IMG/VR virus record: IMGVR_UViG_3300048925_000653
Coordinates: 1-24,467 of that record
From: a virus
Direction: 5' to 3' (one strand)
DNA length: 24,467 bases
How positions within the stretch are numbered: the stretch's first letter is position 1; each line of letters starts with the position of its first letter. The translations under genes and the position numbers were made by a program. Positions 936 through 24,237 of the stretch are shown piece by piece. The notes beneath the pieces are model-generated. The model did not search any database. It was given only the letters and a program-made list of their open reading frames with translations, and had not been told where the DNA came from.

Positions 936-1652
936 TCAGCCCGGCAGCACGTTGACGACCAGCTTCAGATCGCTGGTCGATGCGAGGGTTGGCGTCGAGC
1001 GGGCAACCATAACCGCGTAAAGCGACGTGCCGGCCGGCAGATCGAACGGCATGCCGATTGCCTGCGCTTGGGCAATGGAGATGGCGGCCCCAAGGCTGGT
1101 CCAATCGGTGATGTGAACGACGCCGATCAGCTTGTCGAAGTCGGCCGCATTGACAGCAAGCGCGCCATTGTCGGTGAACGTGGAAGCGGACGGGTCCGCA
1201 GCGAAGAGCAGGAGATCGACAGCGCCGGTCTGCGCGCTTTTACAGTGCAAGGTGACTGACTGGATGATGCCCGCGCCGCCCGCGATGCGGGCCGCATTGG
1301 CCAGCGTCAGCTTCGAGCCGATGACGTCGCCGGTGGCGTAGGCCGTCGTCGAAACCACTGGCGTTACACTCGTGACGAGCACGTCGCCGCCATTCTTGCC
1401 GATATAGTTCTCGCCAGCGGGGGTCGCTTGGCCGAGTAGCGTCTCGAGCCCATCGACGAAACCTTCGAGTCCGTCGGTGTTGTCCTGGATCGCCTTGAGG
1501 CGGCCGAGCAAGGTATTTGCGTTAGGGTTGGTGGCGACCAAGCCCATGGCATCCGTTCCGGCAGCGTCGGCCAGCAGGTTCCAGGCGTAGAATACGCCGG
1601 CCAGATCTTTGAAGGCATATGTCTTGCCGTCGATGGTTACATTATCAGCCAA
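936..1652 (-). CDS. Putative virion structural protein (238 aa), TTG start
   Basis: This protein of about 238 residues has no cysteine-based motif or transmembrane helix. Its N-terminus (MADNVTIDGKTYAFKDLAG) is followed by a helical segment with QDNTDGLEGFVDGLETLLGQ (about 57-76), a typical short coiled region. From about residue 90 it is a beta-rich Ala/Gly/Thr domain (TTAYATGDVIGSKLTLANAA, VTLHCKSAQTGAVDLLLFAADPS). That pattern is common in phage decoration or tail-fibre-like proteins encoded near the capsid gene. The start codon is TTG, supported by a strong AGGAGG a few bases upstream (minus strand, about 1656-1661). The context (after capsid, before connector) makes a virion protein likely. 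I cannot assign a named family. Confidence 0.6.
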   Translation of the reverse strand: MADNVTIDGKTYAFKDLAGVFYAWNLLADAAGTDAMGLVATNPNANTLLGRLKAIQDNTDGLEGFVDGLETLLGQATPAGENYIGKNGGDVLVTSVTPVVSTTAYATGDVIGSKLTLANAARIAGGAGIIQSVTLHCKSAQTGAVDLLLFAADPSASTFTDNGALAVNAADFDKLIGVVHITDWTSLGAAISIAQAQAIGMPFDLPAGTSLYAVMVARSTPTLASTSDLKLVVNVLPG

Positions 1653-5756: not shown

Positions 5757-7672
5757 GACCGCAAGCTACCGAGCCATGAATCAATGCCATTGCTGGTGGG
5801 CATAGCCATAGCCACTCCTATTGCCATCGCCAGCGCCACCGCCGCGTCGATCTTCTGGGCTGCCCGATCCTTGGCCAGCCAGCGGTTTTCCCACCTGTCT
5901 TCGTCCGTCACAGCGGACATGATCGCGGAGATCAGGACAGGATTCTTTTTCAGCCGAATGCGACGCTCGAGCATCGCATCTTCCAGCGCCCGCAAAGAGC
6001 CGGGCATCCAAAGCCCTTCGGCCTCCCGGTTCTCCAGCTCGGCCGCTGCCTTCATGTCCTCAGTCGGCTTGCCTTTTTTCGTGCCGCCCTGCGGGTGCTC
6101 GACGAATGGGATCGCGAGACCCAATTCCCTGCATTCGTTCTCAAGCTGGCGGAAAGCGTACCGGTCATAGCCGACCATGCCGATATCGAAGTTGCGATCA
6201 TCGTCCGCCAGCGACTGGGCGACATGATCGAACCGGATATTCTGACCGGCCGGCGCATTCAGATGGCCCTCACGGACCCAAACATCATATGGCGCCTTAT
6301 CTCGCGTGGCGCGCTCCGAGACGGTATCGCCGGGCGTCCACGCTTCAATCCACGCATCGAACGTCGGCTTTGCGACGATGCGGCGCTCCATGCTGCCATC
6401 ATCGGCCTTGACCATGACTTCTATGTCGACCGTGCCGGTCTGCACGGCATACGCTTTCGCCGTGATGTCCCGGCTCTGCGAAAGGTCGACGCCCAGCCCA
6501 ACGCGCTTATTGTAATGCTCTGACGGGTCGAAATCCGCCAAGCATGGCTCCAGCACCGCCCGCGTCATCCATGCCGTTTCCGCGTCAGTCCAAACGCAGA
6601 AGTGAAGCCTCAAGATGCCGTTGAGCTTGCCGGGCAATGCTTTCGCCTGGGCGACGACATCTGCCAGATATTCGTGCGTCAGAATGACGCCCAGCATCGG
6701 GTTAGCTTTGATCCAGCAGCTTGGATCTTTCAGTGGATCGTCTTGCGGATCCAGCGAGCAGATGAATGCGAATGTCCGATCATCGATGACCTCGCCGACA
6801 TAGGCAAAATCCTTGCCCGGCGTCAGCGTGCCGGCGCAGACCTTCACGCCGTGGTCATGTTCCTCCCTTGCGAGCGAATTCCTGTCAGTGCCACTGTTCG
6901 TAATCATCAGCAGCAGAGGCTGACGGCGAAACTTGAAACCGCGCTCGATCATCTCGATCGCGTCGCGGGTTTTATGCTCGTGCACCTCGTCAGCGAGACC
7001 GCAATGCGGTCGCAGTCCGGAGCCGGTCTTGCCCGCTTCCTTACTCAGTGGCCGAAACCAGCTGTTCGAGGCCAAGTGAGCGAGGTTGTGAACCTTACCG
7101 GCGCCGCCGCTCTGCTTGATGCGGCGGTCCAGCTCCGGCGACTGATCGACCATCGCGACAGCGTCGCGGAACAGAATGGCTGACTGGTCGCGATTGGCGC
7201 CCAGCGAGTAGACTTCCGCCCCCGGTTCCTGATCGGCCATCATGCAGTAGAGGCCGACCCCTGCCGCAAATGGCGATTTTCCGTTTCCCTTGCCTTCCTC
7301 GATGTAGGCGCGACGGAAGCGTCGCACCCAACCATGTGTTGGATCGCTCAGCTGCCACCCAAAGAGAGATGCGACCTTGAACGCCTGGCTTTCGTGCAGC
7401 AGGAACGGTTTGCCTTCGAATTGGCCGCCGTTCAGGCAGAGGCGCGTCTCGAAGAACTCGATAGCGCGCTCGGCCAACTCCACATTGTAGCGCAGGCCGC
7501 GCAAAACACCGTGCTTCAGGTCGTCGAGATGCCGACGGCATGCGTTTCGAACATGCGGCCCGGCAATAACCTTGCCGGCGACGACCGCCTTTGCCCACTT
7601 GGTGCCCCGGTCAGTCGCCGAAGAACTTGTCTTTTTCCTTGGTGGCACTGACGTCCCCACGGTTCCGCTCAT
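5753..7672 (-). CDS. Terminase large subunit (packaging ATPase/nuclease)
   Basis: This 639-residue protein belongs to the Terminase_1 / HK97-type TerL group. The ATPase half has a deviant Walker A, GKGNGKS (127-133), after an adenine-binding region, and Walker B LADEVHE (226-232). Motif III-like LLLMITNSGTD follows (253-263). The nuclease half starts with GVDLSQSRD (394-402), where Asp396 is a likely metal ligand, and ends with a conserved acidic position in KIDAAVALAMA near the C-terminus. With the small subunit it cuts concatemeric phage DNA and drives it into proheads. The chosen ATG overlaps the end of the small-subunit gene by about 60 bases; a later start within the basic N-terminal tail is possible but would not affect any domain. 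Confidence 0.93.
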   Translation of the reverse strand: MSGTVGTSVPPRKKTSSSATDRGTKWAKAVVAGKVIAGPHVRNACRRHLDDLKHGVLRGLRYNVELAERAIEFFETRLCLNGGQFEGKPFLLHESQAFKVASLFGWQLSDPTHGWVRRFRRAYIEEGKGNGKSPFAAGVGLYCMMADQEPGAEVYSLGANRDQSAILFRDAVAMVDQSPELDRRIKQSGGAGKVHNLAHLASNSWFRPLSKEAGKTGSGLRPHCGLADEVHEHKTRDAIEMIERGFKFRRQPLLLMITNSGTDRNSLAREEHDHGVKVCAGTLTPGKDFAYVGEVIDDRTFAFICSLDPQDDPLKDPSCWIKANPMLGVILTHEYLADVVAQAKALPGKLNGILRLHFCVWTDAETAWMTRAVLEPCLADFDPSEHYNKRVGLGVDLSQSRDITAKAYAVQTGTVDIEVMVKADDGSMERRIVAKPTFDAWIEAWTPGDTVSERATRDKAPYDVWVREGHLNAPAGQNIRFDHVAQSLADDDRNFDIGMVGYDRYAFRQLENECRELGLAIPFVEHPQGGTKKGKPTEDMKAAAELENREAEGLWMPGSLRALEDAMLERRIRLKKNPVLISAIMSAVTDEDRWENRWLAKDRAAQKIDAAVALAMAIGVAMAMPTSNGIDSWLGSLRS

Positions 7673-8205: not shown

Positions 8206-8529
8206 TCACCCCTTCGGCCATCCATCCGTGCCGATCTCGATACGCTGGCGAGGCGGATTGCGACCCTGGGCTCTCGCGGATTCCTCATGCGTCTTGGCGT
8301 CGTGGCAGGGACCGCATGCGCCCTGATAGTTCTCGCGCTCATCGGTGCCGCCCTCGGCCTTCGGCACGATATGATCAGCAATTGTCGATGGCGTGTGACG
8401 TGGCGGGTCCATGGCCAAACAGATGCGGCATAGCGGCTCTTCGGCCAGCACGATCTTGCGCATGCGCTCATGATCGCGCCCATATCCGCGCTCTTGCCTG
8501 CTCTTGGTCGTTGATGACCAGCCGGCCAT
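8206..8529 (-). CDS. Phage HNH endonuclease
   Basis: At 107 residues from the ATG at 8529, it contains CRIC (34-37), ADHIVPKAEGG (51-61), Asn67 and CGPCHDAKTHE (72-82). This is the complete HNH pattern with two Cys pairs (C34/C37, C72/C75) for a structural zinc and Asp52-His53/Asn67/His76 for the active site. HNH proteins in this exact place, upstream of terminase, assist DNA packaging and cos cleavage in HK97-like phages. A longer in-frame reading back to 8655 is rejected because it would run through a strong terminator hairpin (8546-8581), and ATG 8529 has GAGG at correct spacing. It is the first gene of the late operon. Confidence 0.88.
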   Translation of the reverse strand: MAGWSSTTKSRQERGYGRDHERMRKIVLAEEPLCRICLAMDPPRHTPSTIADHIVPKAEGGTDERENYQGACGPCHDAKTHEESARAQGRNPPRQRIEIGTDGWPKG

Positions 8530-8545
8530 GGGCGCCTCATTAGAT

Positions 8546-8581
8546 AAAAAAAAGCGCCTCAGGCCTAACTGGCCGAGACGC
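8546..8581 (-). terminator. Strong rho-independent terminator just upstream of the late operon
   Basis: On the minus strand GCGTCTCGGCC pairs with GGCCTGAGGCGC (one bulged base, one G-U pair) and is followed directly by eight T. It stops bottom-strand transcription only about 17 bases before the HNH start, so all late genes lie behind it. In lambda the same place is held by tR', which is overcome by the Q antiterminator. Confidence 0.85.
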
Positions 8582-8772
8582 AAATTCAGACGATGACTTG
8601 TTTTGGCGTCGTAATGCCCCCACGTCAAGCGTCTCGTTTCGTCGCGATATGACAAACAATGTTGGTTGAGGCTCGTTTGCTCGTCCGCCTACTTCAACCG
8701 CAAACTAACACATTGATTTGCGGCATTCTTTTGCGCTGAATTCGACCTTGACTGCTGGCTCAATCGAACCAA

Positions 8773-8801
8773 ATTATACCGTTAAGAGATATAAATCTAT
8801 T
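8773..8801 (-). promoter_or_regulatory. Candidate late promoter (pR'-like), minus strand
   Basis: A perfect TATAAT lies at 8778-8773 on the minus strand; the -35 at 17-bp spacing (8801-8796, AATAGA) is poor, as expected for an activator- or Q-dependent promoter. Transcription would start near 8766 and reach the terminator at 8546 after about 220 bases, without any ORF. The box sits right after the stop of the membrane-protein gene in AT-rich DNA, so a chance match is possible. Confidence 0.35.
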
Positions 8802-9363
8802 AAGTCTCGGCATCGTCATCGAATACCGAGGAATTCAGAAGTGGCTCAATCATCTTTGAAAGCTCCATTCTGCGGCGGTCGACCTCGTAGGTTACTGCCA
8901 TCAGGGATCGCATATCATCTTCGTCAATCGGGCGACCTGAACGAGCATGGGTCGTCAGTTCGTCGAATATTAGGCTACACGCGGCCAACATCTCGCTGCA
9001 GTAACTGCCAAAAATTATTGCATTTTCCTTAATTTTTTCAGCCTGTTGCGCTAGCTGGATTGTTCGGGCCAGCCTCGCATCGGAAGCGCGTTCATTTCGC
9101 CGTTGCGCAAAGCTCGACATTATTGATCCGACGGCTAAAATCATGATGCAGCCGGTCAGGCTGTAGGTGAAAGCGACACCAGCAGTTTGTGCCAAGCCGT
9201 TGCTTTGATAAAATCGATAGAGCGGTATTATCGCTGTAGAAATAACTAAGTTGCCGCCCGCAACGGCGACGACGATCATTAAAAACACCAAAAAACATCG
9301 AGCGGCATTAGCGCCCATATATTTCTCGATTGTCTCTGTTAACGATCCAAGACCTAAGTCCAT
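8800..9363 (-). CDS. Two-helix inner-membrane protein, unknown function (probable cargo gene)
   Basis: This 187-residue protein has two clear membrane spans, about 23-45 (ARCFLVFLMIVVAVAGGNLVI) and about 62-85 (GVAFTYSLTGCIMILAVGSIM). They are followed by a long charged helical cytoplasmic domain (QRRNERASDARLARTIQLAQQAEKIKENAI...). There is no recognisable enzyme motif. The ATG has GAGG upstream. The gene is AT-richer than the phage core genes around it and lies with a HEPN/Abi-like gene between the replication/regulatory block and the late operon, a usual site for accessory (moron) genes. Its function is unknown; superinfection exclusion or a partner role for the neighbouring Abi-like protein are guesses from context. 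Confidence 0.7.
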   Translation of the reverse strand: MDLGLGSLTETIEKYMGANAARCFLVFLMIVVAVAGGNLVISTAIIPLYRFYQSNGLAQTAGVAFTYSLTGCIMILAVGSIMSSFAQRRNERASDARLARTIQLAQQAEKIKENAIIFGSYCSEMLAACSLIFDELTTHARSGRPIDEDDMRSLMAVTYEVDRRRMELSKMIEPLLNSSVFDDDAET

Positions 9364-9430
9364 TTCAGCCTCAATTATTCAGATCTACTCAACCGATGCC
9401 ACGATCGAGCACAATCAGGTTTGACGCAAC

Positions 9431-10111
9431 TTATCGCGGTCGCTCTCGAATTACCTTTGGGACGCAAGAATGCTCTCTCGTCCATTCTCGTGTGTCAATG
9501 CAGATCCAACCGAGCATTTTCAGTATATTGCTGTAATTGCCGCTTAAGTCCTGACCGATTAGCGGCTCTTGGTGGAAAATGCGGTTGCGCCAGTCCTGGA
9601 TCTTTGTCCCAACCCTACTGACGTCGTTCATCGTTTCACCCGCTGATAAGTTCGGAAAAGCCTCTTGCGAGTGACGTGTCCAAATCAATGGGACGTAATT
9701 TCTGCGGAGGAGAGATACCCAAAACCCTAGCGATAATGAGGCTAGCAACTGAGGGGTGGTAGGAACGCGTCCATATATGTTATTGTAACGTGTTTCCGCT
9801 TTGGTGAGCTCAACGACGGCCTTAAGCCCCAACGCAGCTCGGCAAGCGTCATTAAAACACCAATTTTCGCCGTATTGATCGCAAAGTGCATCGTGGCAGA
9901 CATTCCTAAGAGCCACCTCAACTGTTTGTAGCGGGAAATGGAAACTCTGGCCCACTGCTGCGTTCCATAGATACAGTTTGATGGCAACGTCGTCCCTAAA
10001 GCCGCTAGCCATCCGGTAAGTGCGCAACCTTTCAGGTGAAACCGTCCTTTTGAAGGCTGTCATTAACTCAGGGCTAACCTGCCCTGCGATAGGGACTTGA
10101 CGAATGGGCAT
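9431..10111 (-). CDS. Abi-like HEPN-domain protein (probable abortive-infection factor)
   Basis: This 226-residue all-helical protein resembles the Abi-like group. It has ISPERLRTY-type N-terminus (SPERLRTYRM, 25-34), AIKLYLWNAAVGQSFHFPLQTVEVALRN (43-70), LLASLSLGFWVSLLRRNYVPLIW (122-144), and a C-terminal RNRIFHQEPL (175-184) followed by a helix ending in GW. RNRIFH is the R-N-x3-H (Rx4-6H) motif of HEPN ribonucleases, in which Arg175, Asn176 and His180 would be catalytic. Abi-like HEPN proteins act in anti-phage abortive infection, probably by RNA cleavage. Here it is carried within the prophage next to a membrane-protein gene in AT-richer DNA, so it is a likely lysogen-defence gene. Family by motif; toxicity and trigger are unknown. 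Confidence 0.72.
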   Translation of the reverse strand: MPIRQVPIAGQVSPELMTAFKRTVSPERLRTYRMASGFRDDVAIKLYLWNAAVGQSFHFPLQTVEVALRNVCHDALCDQYGENWCFNDACRAALGLKAVVELTKAETRYNNIYGRVPTTPQLLASLSLGFWVSLLRRNYVPLIWTRHSQEAFPNLSAGETMNDVSRVGTKIQDWRNRIFHQEPLIGQDLSGNYSNILKMLGWICIDTREWTREHSCVPKVIRERPR

Positions 10112-10169
10112 TGAGAGTCCAGTTCACGAGTGAGAGCCGAGTTTCGTAAGAGATTCGGACCAGATAGAG

Positions 10170-10210
10170 CCCCCGGACAGCTGCAAGGCCCTCCGGGGGT
10201 TTCGCTTTTT
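10170..10210 (+). terminator. Rho-independent terminator, top strand, with no gene in front of it
   Basis: The arms are CCCCCGGA and TCCGGGGG (about 10170-10177 and 10192-10199) with a 14-base loop, followed by TTTCGCTTTTT. The T-tract works for the top strand only, but all neighbouring genes are on the bottom strand. It lies between the Abi-like gene and the winged-helix gene and may end antisense transcripts or a small RNA. On the bottom strand it could act as a weak hairpin after the gene ending at 10219. Confidence 0.6.
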
Positions 10211-10218
10211 GAAGCGTG

Positions 10219-10683
10219 TCAAATTTCAGGCCGGGGCGGCGCAAGCTGATCCCGCGGCCAATAACCTGCGCCGGTGTTGATAAATTGCTTCGACCGCCAC
10301 ATGATTGTGCCCAAGTTACGGGCCTTATCTTGGCCTCCAATAACCAGCCCCATTTTTTCGATCGGCTCAATTAACTCGTAGCGATTGAGCGGCTCCCCAG
10401 CAGCCAAAATCGCCACCAGAGCAGCTCCTGCAATATCTTCCGGAGACGAGCCGTTCGGCCCCCTGCCACCACGCGACGACTTTTCGATGGCTGATCGCAC
10501 GTCGGGCGTCCACTCCACGGGCAAAACAACAGCCCCAGGGTTGTCGTCGACAAACTGGTCGACGAACCGTTCAATCTCGGCCTTTACCGAATTATACCTA
10601 TCGATCGCAGCGTCGATTTTTTCGATCTCTAACGCCAACTTAGCGCGGCGCTCGACGAGCCTCTCAACTGGATCTTTCTGCAT
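10219..10683 (-). CDS. Coiled-coil + winged-helix (HARE-HTH-like) protein
   Basis: The start at 10683 (MQKDPVERLVERRAKL) is set by a perfect GGAGGT nine bases upstream; 154 residues. Residues 5-50 form a charged coiled coil (ERRAKLALEIEKIDAAIDRYNSVKAEIERF). Residues about 95-150 look like a HARE/winged-helix fold: GEPLNRYELIEPIEKMGLVI, GGQDKARNLGTIMWRS, then FINTGAGYWP. The 'GG.D..RNL.TI......F...G.GYW' sequence is typical of HARE-HTH-like domains, which bind nucleic acid or act in regulation. It lies after the replication block and before the late operon, so it may be a late regulator or a cargo-linked regulator. A weak TATGAT box precedes it on the bottom strand. Confidence 0.65.
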   Translation of the reverse strand: MQKDPVERLVERRAKLALEIEKIDAAIDRYNSVKAEIERFVDQFVDDNPGAVVLPVEWTPDVRSAIEKSSRGGRGPNGSSPEDIAGAALVAILAAGEPLNRYELIEPIEKMGLVIGGQDKARNLGTIMWRSKQFINTGAGYWPRDQLAPPRPEI

Positions 10684-10812
10684 ACTTACCTCCGCGACAG
10701 GAATCATATCGCACATCAACACACAGAATTCAACGCGTATGTCATATGGAGCAAGAATTCTTTCATGCACTCTATCAGCGTTGGATGTGAGTGGAGGGAG
10801 ACATCAGCTCAC

Positions 10813-11496
10813 TCAGCCACCTCGCATTCGCGCTTGCTGAGGCACCATCCATTCGTGATGTTTCAAAGCCAGTTCGCTGACAGTCATGACAAATAGCGCT
10901 GATACGCGCTCGCGAGTGCGACTGACTGATTTTCGGACATGCCGCTGGGCACACAGGCGCCGCGCTGTCTCGATGAAACTCTCACCATCCTTCATGACTG
11001 CATCAAACGCGGCGCAACTGTCAGGCGCCAAACCGGCGCGGACGATCGCAATCGCGGACTGTGCCATGAGCGCTGCCTCGTGCGTGGGAATATGGGAGGC
11101 AGCAGCGCCCCCACCGCCGGAGAAGTCGAGGCTGCTTTTGACGGATACGCTGTCGGCGCGGTCGAGTGTGTCCTGATACCATTCCAGAAAGGCCCCAATC
11201 ATTTTCTCGGACACCGGTTTGCCGTCGTGCATGGCCTTGCGGAAGACGCCGCGCGCCAGCATCTCGCGCCATGCCGGCTGGATGCGCAACGCCTTGTGGC
11301 GAACCATAGCGCCACGGATGATCACGTCGCCGCCGGGATCTTCGGCCAGGTCGACAATCTCGACGTTCCGGCGATCCAGCCGCGCACCGTTGCTCAGTGC
11401 CTGGGTGATGAGCGGATGCAGCGGCGCGGGGGCGGGCTGCTTGGTCTTGCTGATGCGCTGGCTCGTCGAGCGGCGCGCTTTGGTCTTGGCGATCAT
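10813..11496 (-). CDS. Unknown phage protein at the end of the early operon; late-regulator position
   Basis: This 227-residue protein begins with a basic Lys/Ser/Thr/Pro-rich tail (1-28). A beta-like part (EIVDLAEDPGGDVIIRGAMVRHKAL) is followed by helices, a Gly/Ala-rich loop (DFSGGGGAAASHIPTHEAAL), and a C-terminal helical domain (AIAIVRAGLAPDSCAAFDAVMKDGESFIETARRLC...RVSALFVMTVSELALKH). The last part has the feel of a DUF6456- or sigma-like DNA-binding helical domain, but I cannot name a family with confidence. The ATG overlaps the initiator stop (ATGA), so it is made with the replication proteins. In lambdoid phages this end-of-early-operon slot is held by the antiterminator Q; that role here is a hypothesis. 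Confidence 0.6.
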   Translation of the reverse strand: MIAKTKARRSTSQRISKTKQPAPAPLHPLITQALSNGARLDRRNVEIVDLAEDPGGDVIIRGAMVRHKALRIQPAWREMLARGVFRKAMHDGKPVSEKMIGAFLEWYQDTLDRADSVSVKSSLDFSGGGGAAASHIPTHEAALMAQSAIAIVRAGLAPDSCAAFDAVMKDGESFIETARRLCAQRHVRKSVSRTRERVSALFVMTVSELALKHHEWMVPQQARMRGG

Positions 11497-19024: not shown

Positions 19025-19420
19025 ATGATTCGAGAGCTTTCGCTGGCCATTGTGGGCGCCGACCATCCCAACAAAAAAGGCCCCGGCCGACGTTTCGAGA
19101 TAGCGCTTTGCCTTCCCGGCGAGGCTGTTGAACTGCGGCGAGAACCGAAGAACCCAGCCGACCCCTACGCAATTGCCGTCTATTCCGCCCGTGATATCCA
19201 GATCGGCTATGTGCGGGCGGAGCGCGCCCAGCTGGTCGGTTTGATGATGAGGCGTGCACCTTTCTCAGCCATCTTCCAGGGTGCAGAGAGCTGGGGCGCG
19301 ACAATCCGCGCCGGAGTTAACCCCACCCTTCCCGAACCGTCTGATTCCGAGGCTTATGACTGGCCACCGCCGGGGTCAGAAGATGCCGACTGGTGGCCTG
19401 ATGAAGTCTGGCCAGATTAA
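19025..19420 (+). CDS. HIRAN-domain protein
   Basis: This is a 131-residue protein. Residues about 6-80 (LAIVGADHPNKKGPGRRFEIALCLPGEAVELRREPKNPADPYAIAVYSARDIQIGYVRAERAQLV) are a HIRAN domain: the 'P.G..V.L.REP.NP.DP.AIAV+....IGY.' core is unmistakable. HIRAN domains bind single-stranded DNA 3' ends and are found in fork-remodelling proteins and as stand-alone phage proteins. The tail is acidic and Trp-rich (DWPPPGSEDADWWPDEVW). The TAA stop lies two bases before operator O3. There is no Shine-Dalgarno; a 20-bp palindrome is just upstream. Confidence 0.85.
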   Translation: MIRELSLAIVGADHPNKKGPGRRFEIALCLPGEAVELRREPKNPADPYAIAVYSARDIQIGYVRAERAQLVGLMMRRAPFSAIFQGAESWGATIRAGVNPTLPEPSDSEAYDWPPPGSEDADWWPDEVWPD

Positions 19421-19814: not shown

Positions 19815-20104
19815 GCGCGGTTGCCGCCAGCCGCGCTCAGGCGGTCGACCTGCTCAACAGATCCGGGGTGGACTTTGAGCAGAGCGACGTAGCGCTTGTG
19901 GCGCGGCTGCTGCCGCTGATCGAGGCGGACATGATTTGCAAGGTGGCGACGGGCCATCTGCTCGTTGCTGTCCCGCGGGACACGCTTGAAAGCCTGTTCG
20001 AGAAACTGCCGCTCGATAGCGGCCCGCTGCGCGAACGCGCGGCGCAGACCCTCAGCGACGATGTCTGCCGTTGCGCCCTCTGTCGGAGGGCTGACCATGG
20101 CTGA
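19811..20104 (+). CDS. Small unknown protein (97 aa), GTG start
   Basis: It starts with GTG at 19811, overlapping the previous stop (GTGA). It has 97 residues, mostly helical (VDLLNRSGVDFEQSDVALVARLLPLIEADMICKVATGHLLVAVP) and ends with CRCALCRRADHG, a Cys cluster. It overlaps the next gene start by 8 bases. Family not known. Confidence 0.6.
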   Translation: MSAVAASRAQAVDLLNRSGVDFEQSDVALVARLLPLIEADMICKVATGHLLVAVPRDTLESLFEKLPLDSGPLRERAAQTLSDDVCRCALCRRADHG

Positions 20105-21254
20105 CGGTACCAAGATCGAATGGACCGACGCGACGTGGAACGTGATCACGGGCTGCTCTGTCCTCTCGCCCGGCTGCAAGCATTGCTATGCGATGAAGCT
20201 GGCAGGCACGCGGCTGCGCAATCACCCCAGCCGTGCGGGGCTCACGGTCGAGACGAAGACCGGACCGGTCTGGAACGGTGAGGTTCGCTTCAATGACGGC
20301 CGGTTCGGGACGCCCGATTGGCTGAGACAGCCGCTGCATTGGGCGAAGCCGCGCATGATCTTCGTCTGCGCCCACGCCGATCTCTTTCACGATGGCGTCG
20401 ACGAGACATGGCTTGACCAGATCTTCGCCGTCATGGCGCTCGCTCGCCATCACACCTTTCAGGTGCTGACCAAGCGCGCTGACGCGATGCACGACTATCT
20501 GTCCGACCCGATAATGCCGCAAAGGGTGTCTGCCCTGCTCGACGGGCTGAAGCCCAGCAGCTTGTGGAACGGCAACGTCCATCAGGCGGGTGTCGATTTG
20601 GCCGCTTGGCCGCTCAAGAATGTCTGGCTTGGCGTGTCGGTCGAGGATCAGCAGCGGGCAAACGAGCGCATCCCGGCTCTATTAGCCACGCCGGCCGCTG
20701 TTCGCTGGGTTTCGTGCGAACCTCTTCTAGGGCCGGTCGATCTAAGGTCAATCAAGGCGCCCGGCGAGAAAGACGAAACCGACGGTCTCGACTGGCGCTT
20801 CGACGCTTTGGAAGTCGGCGATTACTACTGGTTTGACGGGGAAGGCGGCCAGCCGGGCGACTGCGGAGATGGCCCCTACAGGGATCATCGGATCGATTGG
20901 GTTGTAGCAGGTGGCGAGAACGGTCCGCGCCCGATGCATCCGGATTGGGCGCGAGCGCTGCGCGACCAGTGCGCTTCCGCGACGTTGCACGGCGATGATG
21001 CACCGGTGCCCTTCCTGTTCAAGCAGTGGGGTGAATGGGAGACGGGCCTGGATCGAGAGCGCGACGACCCTGATTGGCGGGCCGACTACACGAACGACTA
21101 TGTCGATCATGGCAAATCGCGCTGGCTGAACTTGGCAGGCGGCAGCGGTTTCCATGGCGAGCGCTTCCATGTGATGCGCCGCGTCGGCAAGAAGGCCGCA
21201 GGCCGACTGCTTGACGGTGTCATTCACGACGGCTTCCCGGAGACAAACCGGTGA
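20097..21254 (+). CDS. DUF5131 (phage Gp37/Gp68) protein with radical-SAM-like Cys cluster
   Basis: 385 residues from ATG 20097, which has GGAGGG upstream. [33 protein letters not shown] (1-33) is the Gp37/Gp68 signature: 'IEWTD.TWN...GC....PGC..CYA'. The Cys residues follow C-x6-C-x2-C, like a radical-SAM [4Fe-4S] site. Also [77 protein letters not shown], and [36 protein letters not shown], as in this family. The reaction is not established. It is the largest gene of the operon driven by the O3/O4 promoter. Stop overlaps the next GTG start. Confidence 0.88.
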   Translation: [385 protein letters not shown]

Positions 21255-23694: not shown

Positions 23695-24237
23695 TTAGGA
23701 CTTCATCAAAGATTTAAAAATCATGAAAAAAGTATCCACGCTAAGCGCACTGTTTTTATACATGTAAAAACAGACATTGTGCAAGTAATCAAAATCATAC
23801 TCAATCGGCGTATTTTCATATGCGGCACACACACGATAAGCAATGTCGAACGCATGTATGAAGTTGTGATACGTGTTGTAGAACTCTAGCGCTTCAAAAG
23901 CCTTACCCTCGTCATGGAGGTGAATCAGCGCAACACCGTTACCTATTTCATGATCATCATAGGCAGGAGCAATCGAAGTTATGATTTTGCTGCCGTACAA
24001 TGCATGCAACAACGAACCAGACCGCTTATAGTGGTCAGGATTCGAAGAATTTAGGAGTAGCGAATACCGCTGTATATTTTGACTATATTCTTGGAACGCA
24101 TACACCACGCGCTCGGTATCTATTTCCAGATCACACTCCATATACGGAGTGAGTGGCGTTACAGCTGATTTGTAGTTTTCTTCAACAAACGTAACAAAAT
24201 TATGCTGCTCGGAAATGGAAGTAAAAATGTCTGACAA
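23695..24237 (-). CDS. AT-rich orphan gene after the integrase (180 aa), unknown function
   Basis: This 180-residue protein is AT-rich compared with all phage and nearby genes, so recent acquisition is likely. It is acidic, aromatic-rich, helical (VVYAFQEYSQNIQRYSLLLNSSNPDHYKRSGSLLHALYGSKIITSI, DEGKAFEALEFYNTYHNFIHAFDIAYRVCAAYE), without signal or membrane spans or a motif I recognise. The TTG start is uncertain; GGGGG lies about ten bases upstream, yet a strong terminator hairpin lies only about 35 bases further on, so its promoter must be short or weak. It is convergent to the integrase, a common site for defence or cargo genes. Function is unknown. Confidence 0.6.
   Translation of the reverse strand: MSDIFTSISEQHNFVTFVEENYKSAVTPLTPYMECDLEIDTERVVYAFQEYSQNIQRYSLLLNSSNPDHYKRSGSLLHALYGSKIITSIAPAYDDHEIGNGVALIHLHDEGKAFEALEFYNTYHNFIHAFDIAYRVCAAYENTPIEYDFDYLHNVCFYMYKNSALSVDTFFMIFKSLMKS

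Follow-up and report, generated by a model that had tools for sequence, protein, structure and literature searches.

The window, the 24,467-base virus record IMGVR_UViG_3300048925_000653 taken at its full length, carries a minus-strand gene for an Abi-type HEPN protein with a predicted AbiF fold and an invariant RNxxxH motif and, upstream of it on the same strand, a covarying two-hairpin element. We consider it probable that the two form an AbiF-type toxin-antitoxin unit carried by the phage, a type III-like pairing of RNA and protein in which the antitoxin RNA is a class of its own. The first-pass annotation had paired the HEPN gene with the membrane-protein gene next to it; judged from sequence comparison, its conserved partner looks like the small folded upstream RNA, not the membrane gene.

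The window looks like a temperate phage. Genes for capsid, a Clp-type protease, portal (assigned by position and by eye) and terminase lie on the minus strand at 2.3–8.0 kb, an S24/HTH repressor-like gene at 16.1–16.8 kb and an integrase, recognised by a weak match, at 22.3–23.5 kb. Flanked by the replication/methyltransferase block on one side and the HNH/terminase module on the other are, as had been described from the letters, two bottom-strand open reading frames of differing base composition: the membrane protein gene (8800–9363, 187 aa) and the putative AbiF/Abi_2-type HEPN RNase toxin gene, assigned by profiles and fold (9431–10111, 226 aa). Their GC contents are 0.49 and 0.51 (GC3 0.52 and 0.54), lower than those of most neighbours (0.59–0.63), while the gene upstream of HEPN (10219–10770) is intermediate at 0.54 and had no viral relative by tblastn. 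The HEPN gene, the membrane gene and the element (the last by pattern scan) were all absent from 34 phage loci that share the HNH gene, distant relatives whose terminase identity was 25–37% in the 14 loci printed, and this absence fits accessory cargo. For the HEPN/Abi-type gene, the idea of accessory cargo in a temperate phage was borne out. Elsewhere in the window, a very AT-rich open reading frame at the record end (23695–24237, minus strand, GC 0.41, 180 aa) adjoins the integrase-like gene; it had no convincing match in Pfam or PADLOC and could be cargo or host DNA. The plus-strand half of the phage encodes a HIRAN-domain protein and a DUF5131 protein (19025–19420 and 19965–21254, plus strand).

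The RNRIFH HEPN motif that the first-pass annotation had read was confirmed in the product of 9431–10111 as R175-N176-R-I-F-H180, and the check for its conservation in relatives gave the same picture, R175, N176 and H180 being invariant first in 9 and then in 43 aligned sequences. RNxxxH was present in 49 of 50 HEPN stretches, the fiftieth (L095) having been read out of frame. Taken alone, the window protein gave nothing in Pfam at E values up to 10 and matched the PADLOC model PD-T4-5 with an E value of 3.9e-10, the best matched stretch covering residues 24–111 only. Among the 43 aligned family members, PD-T4-5 matched all 43, the PADLOC AbiD model 31 and Pfam Abi_2 (PF07751) 37 (E up to 0.01), and the likeness to PD-T4-5, which reportedly goes back to a paper on an E. 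coli selection, is one of profile matches, limited in the window protein to the residues given. By tblastn, HEPN relatives were found in 729 plasmid records (with the annotation Abi family protein in 12 of the 20 matches listed) and in 4 phage records, and a subfamily scan of one genome per species across 84,980 species returned 80 loci, with Azorhizobium doebereinerae UFLA1-100 and Bradyrhizobium frederickii CNPSo 3426 among the native carriers.

The AlphaFold model of the HEPN protein had a pLDDT of 94.5 and a pTM of 0.89. In a fold search with this model, the PbAbiF–ncRNA structure (8vz6_A) ranked top with Z 12.2 and an rmsd of 3.4 over 203 residues, while the next best reached Z 5.7; chains of Csm6, Cas13b and MntA-HepT lay at Z 5.3–5.7, a resemblance of the model that may reflect a common helical arrangement. 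Foldseek also ranked the 8vz6 chain first (probability 1.00, E 0.12). Besides PbAbiF, the fold search listed further HEPN chains but none of ToxN, an absence that excludes nothing as regards ToxN. The predicted fold is that of AbiF, and family profiles and predicted fold together place the protein in the Abi_2/AbiD-F group; the HEPN/Abi-type identity proposed earlier is upheld by the motif, the Abi_2 and PADLOC profiles of relatives and this model.

Several relatives differed in state or setting. An in-frame stop fell within the matched HEPN stretch in L073/L163, L074, L075, L076 and L098, and from these sequences some carriers seem to combine a broken toxin with a retained RNA. On a Microvirga plasmid (L004, 5695–8660) the DISARM gene drmC and a DUF1998 gene lie near the HEPN gene, a defence-rich setting. 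Plasmids of Ancylobacter (L002, 4679–8645) and Bosea (L003, 4688–8648) both have an HTH gene, then HEPN, then an open reading frame of about 1300 aa, possibly a larger HEPN system.

The interval singled out by the first-pass annotation runs to 10210 and includes a structured noncoding element that drew no comment there. From the stop codon of the gene upstream to the start codon of HEPN, the spacer measures 107 nt; it contains the putative antitoxin ncRNA (approximately 10131–10210, minus strand), which begins about 8 nt past that stop codon and ends about 20 nt ahead of that start codon. Its P1 hairpin (10170–10199, minus strand) has an outer stem CCCCCGGA/TCCGGGGG and a short inner helix and is preceded by a conserved AAAGCGAAA; a conserved linker, CTCTATCTG (10161–10169, minus strand), leads to the P2 hairpin (10134–10160, minus strand), which has the outer stem CCGA/TCGG and, in the window, a short interior. 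Folding of 10112–10225 gave −36.9 as compared with −28.7 for shuffles (z −2.4), better than the shuffled sequences, and two relatives with 54–55% protein identity had the same hairpin in the same stretch, one of them with a compensated change.

Covariation was determined for each hairpin. The P1 alignment comprised 32 sequences, 30 from upstream of HEPN genes and 2 from loci without HEPN (L061 and L062); over its 11 pairs, 98.0% of cells were paired and 6 pairs showed both-sided change, with a covariation score of 0.278, shuffles giving 0.082 and slid partners no more than 0.027. P2 was analysed in 25 of the 32, leaving aside L085, L087, L090, L091, L096, L098 and L061, which had another P2 form or a poor fit. 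In its outer stem, 92.4% of cells were paired and four of the five pairs had changes at both positions, and the score was 0.341 against at most 0.128 for slid partners, while the count of further pair types in P2 showed no excess over shuffles (369 of 500 reached it). The pair at columns 21–38 is G-U in 30 of the 32 sequences and A-U in 2; the G-U form can pair on the HEPN sense strand alone. Taken together, these comparisons point to a conserved structured ncRNA directly upstream of HEPN on the same strand.

We built a covariance model from the element alignment (R1), which recovered the window copy at 10129–10208 (minus strand) with 79.8 bits. R1 found the element in 28 of the 80 genome HEPN loci, every time upstream of HEPN on the HEPN strand, 27 of these being seeds; the loci that had the element were those closest to the window. 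It also found the element in 2 of 55 viral, phage-record and plasmid loci, both of them seeds or seed copies. Scanning 397, 296 and 295 genomes from three families gave 19 matches over the thresholds used, of which 13 reached at least 44 bits. Twelve of these 13 were immediately followed by HEPN on the same strand, once (L163) with an in-frame stop, and the one match without HEPN was L159. Most R1 seeds had been picked for lying upstream of HEPN, so that only the non-seed matches are an independent test, and these are few: 7 of the 13 strong matches were seeds, and 5 of the 6 non-seed ones had HEPN (L155, L157, L158, L166 and L167). Drawing 385 genomes at class level yielded just two copies, both known before, and the non-seed test therefore rests on these six. 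None of the six weaker matches, at 31–36 bits, had HEPN.

Two pattern scans of viral contigs yielded eight distinct element groups. The first returned 10 stretches, of which L058, L059 and L063 were dropped as chance and the remaining seven formed five groups, and the second returned five stretches in three groups. HEPN accompanied the element in five groups (L057, L060, L064/L066, L213 and L216) and was missing from three (L061/L065, L062 and L214/L215/L217). Together with L159, which lies in a genome, these last represent solitary copies, located at 6238–6328 (minus strand) in L061, 8655–8740 (plus strand) in L062, approximately 1290–1368 (minus strand) in L215 and 1501–1584 (minus strand) in L159. 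In L061 the element is accompanied by a 16-nt remnant that matches the HEPN start at 15 of 16 positions, the rest of the gene not being found there; L062, L215 and L159 had no HEPN, the sequence downstream of the element amounting to 296 nt in L214, 534 nt in L217 and 1383 nt in L215. In L061, L062, L215 and L159 both hairpins are kept, and the P2 outer stem pairs by eye. Such copies may be decaying remnants, opposite-strand terminators or antidotes, and they raise the possibility of a counter-defence role. That some phages carry the antitoxin RNA alone, as an antidote silencing the AbiF toxin of the host or of a rival prophage, strikes us as unlikely; if true, an RNA that regulates defence in one phage would serve counter-defence in another.

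Comparison with known RNAs set the element apart. The Rfam abiF family (RF03085) was not listed for window positions 8500–10900 at E up to 10 and was above its gathering cut-off in none of the seven relative-bearing genomes or records tried. At gathering level, Rfam turned up just two tRNAs in sets of 13 and 14 loci, and two upstream stretches scanned permissively yielded no relevant match. The Rfam family P15 (RF00627) matched 10170–10286 with 19.5 bits (E 0.39, gathering cut-off 70), which we judged to be chance on a shared GC hairpin. Other HEPN relatives have a single hairpin with the core GCATGC-GCAGAGGC, and a model of 12 one-hairpin abiF-like motifs (R3) matched L106 and L122, two non-seed loci, again upstream of HEPN; the HEPN loci recognised by R1 and by R3 differ. 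Homology of P2 with the one-hairpin motif was considered, the cores being alike by eye (TATGCnAAGCAGTGAC versus CATGCnAAGCAGAGGC), and is not claimed, R3 giving only 5.5–5.8 bits for P2. With RF03085 below its cut-off and P2 unseen by R3, kinship to known AbiF antitoxin RNAs is one of position and architecture only, and by these tests the element RNA forms a class apart. As far as the evidence goes, this is a class of two-hairpin RNAs, mostly of alphaproteobacteria and their phages, that lay below every Rfam cut-off where tested. Upstream of HEPN in L004, L006 and L014–L017 a third form was seen by eye, a GAAACACCAGGT..ACCTGGTG hairpin with a TCGA..TTCGA one after it, in the two-hairpin layout of the window element but with differing stems. 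Among the papers listed by searches of an open-access library, we recognised none that describes the element; the work of Zilberzwige-Tal and others on AbiF and Cas13, cited in PMC12373285, may cover it.

In the membrane protein, about residues 15–45 and 60–85 form two hydrophobic stretches, likely transmembrane helices, and a marginal third stretch lies near 115; the C-terminal part is long and helical and is taken as cytoplasmic. Its single-sequence AlphaFold model was poor (pLDDT 53), so that, while the two hydrophobic stretches and the helical part agree with the earlier description, the label 'two-helix' rests on hydropathy. No relative was found in viral contigs, genome contigs, phage records or plasmid records, nor in 145 other fetched loci (next best E 1.3). 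In 14 carrier genomes, matches at E up to 10 occurred in 2 (best 0.024), and searches of 297 and 249 genomes gave one and two matches, respectively (E 4e-4 to 8e-4, about 20 bits); these sit inside frames of 961, 846 and 425 aa and were judged to be coiled-coil background. None of the frames downstream of HEPN in 29 relatives was related to the membrane protein, and in many of these relatives the largest nearby frame, from mechanically called open reading frames, was on the opposite strand. A 335-aa frame directly after HEPN in L084 was flagged by hydropathy and, inspected by eye, resembles a sugar-phosphate etherase of the MurQ kind rather than a membrane protein.

The first-pass annotation had suggested that a membrane sensor and the HEPN RNase could be a two-part defence against other phages, while allowing that their pairing may be chance. 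In such a system the membrane protein would sense infection (or depolarisation) and activate the HEPN RNase. The two genes are indeed adjacent on the same strand, 67 nt apart and similarly low in GC, and the membrane protein weakly matches the PADLOC model Mem_04, a type III CRISPR-associated membrane protein (E 9e-4). However, the survey of co-occurrence by which that annotation proposed to judge the pair never found them together: a membrane relative stood beside no other HEPN locus and was in no collection searched, and a promoter-like site, recognised by consensus only, separates the genes in the window. By the refuting condition which that annotation had set, the pairing fails, and we regard a two-part defence as highly improbable; on these sequence comparisons the membrane gene was judged to be separate accessory cargo that is the next gene downstream by happenstance, for which superinfection exclusion is an ordinary guess.

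Two further readings concern the RNA itself. As a cis leader or attenuator, the element would be a structured 5′ UTR controlling HEPN expression rather than a trans-acting, protein-binding antitoxin, which would suit its position immediately upstream, probably on the same transcript; the C. difficile report mentions both a structured 5′ UTR reported to control translation of L. lactis AbiD1 and an action of RCd22 in cis via premature termination (PMC12373285). Against this, the sense strand has no U-tract after P1 or P2, the predicted fold matches the RNA-binding AbiF dimer, and P1 and P2 are kept in copies that have no HEPN gene, and we think a cis leader quite unlikely. The opposite strand has an intrinsic-terminator-like site, P1 followed by a T-rich run on the plus strand, and when the element of L061, L062 or L215 is read on its opposite strand, it comes right behind the 3′ terminus of an adjoining frame (mechanical open reading frames). 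The element might accordingly be a mere transcription terminator for opposite-strand genes, adjacent to HEPN by hitch-hiking, but a terminator needs neither the conserved inner helix and linker nor a covarying P2, the conserved G-U pair forms on the HEPN strand only, and each of the 14 whole carrier genomes held exactly one copy, unlike a dispersed terminator present many times. We give this reading very little credence.

A toxin-antitoxin unit of the AbiF kind remains our preferred reading. Counting against it are the missing Pfam match of the window protein itself, an RNA that does not reach the RF03085 cut-off, the copies lacking HEPN, the terminator-like site opposite P1 and the small number of non-seed matches. 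The element and the HEPN gene would be co-transcribed, and the RNA would fold, bind the HEPN dimer and keep the RNase off; if RCd22 of C. difficile is a guide, one of its two hairpins may sit on each protomer. Were the RNA lost or outrun, for example on infection by another phage, the free dimer would cut single-stranded cellular RNA and growth would stop, which would protect the lysogen population and stabilise the prophage.

Among known systems, AbiF/RCd22 of the Clostridioides difficile phi027 prophage is likewise a prophage-borne Abi_2/AbiF HEPN protein with RNxxxH and an upstream, co-oriented ncRNA of two hairpins and a short linker (PMC12373285). According to that report, an RNA of about 100 nt with two abiF motifs neutralises the toxic AbiF by direct binding, and toxicity requires the HEPN R and H residues (PMC12373285). 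The RNA motif in C. difficile is RF03085, whereas that in the window is not, by score; AbiFCd lies in the lysis module, whereas the window gene lies between replication and terminase genes; and toxicity was demonstrated in C. difficile, while the window toxin is putative, read from sequence (PMC12373285). PbAbiF with its AbiFr ncRNA (8vz6) shares the predicted fold over 203 residues, the HEPN motif and an upstream ncRNA, but is only 12% identical, with a solved chain of 297 residues against 226. Its description presents PbAbiF as a dimer with single-stranded RNase activity that binds one RNA per protomer, whereas the window has one RNA with two unlike hairpins (PMC12737573). The ToxIN, CptIN and TenpIN type III systems work alike, a small RNA antitoxin lying upstream of an RNase toxin, a likeness for which we claim no kinship: the predicted fold of the window toxin is that of AbiF/HEPN and probably not ToxN-like. 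In addition, the ToxIN-type antitoxin RNA is a tandem repeat (PMC12373285), whereas we found no tandem RNA repeats in the window element, P1 and P2 each being present as one copy. AbiF is also reported to be the ancestor of Cas13 (PMC12737573), so that any further class of AbiF antitoxin RNA illustrates the variation of these RNAs before they became guides. A covariance model for the two-hairpin class is ready for use, and the view of the neighbouring membrane gene as the HEPN partner is corrected. Set beside these systems, the simplest reading of the window would be the logic of C. difficile AbiF with another RNA.
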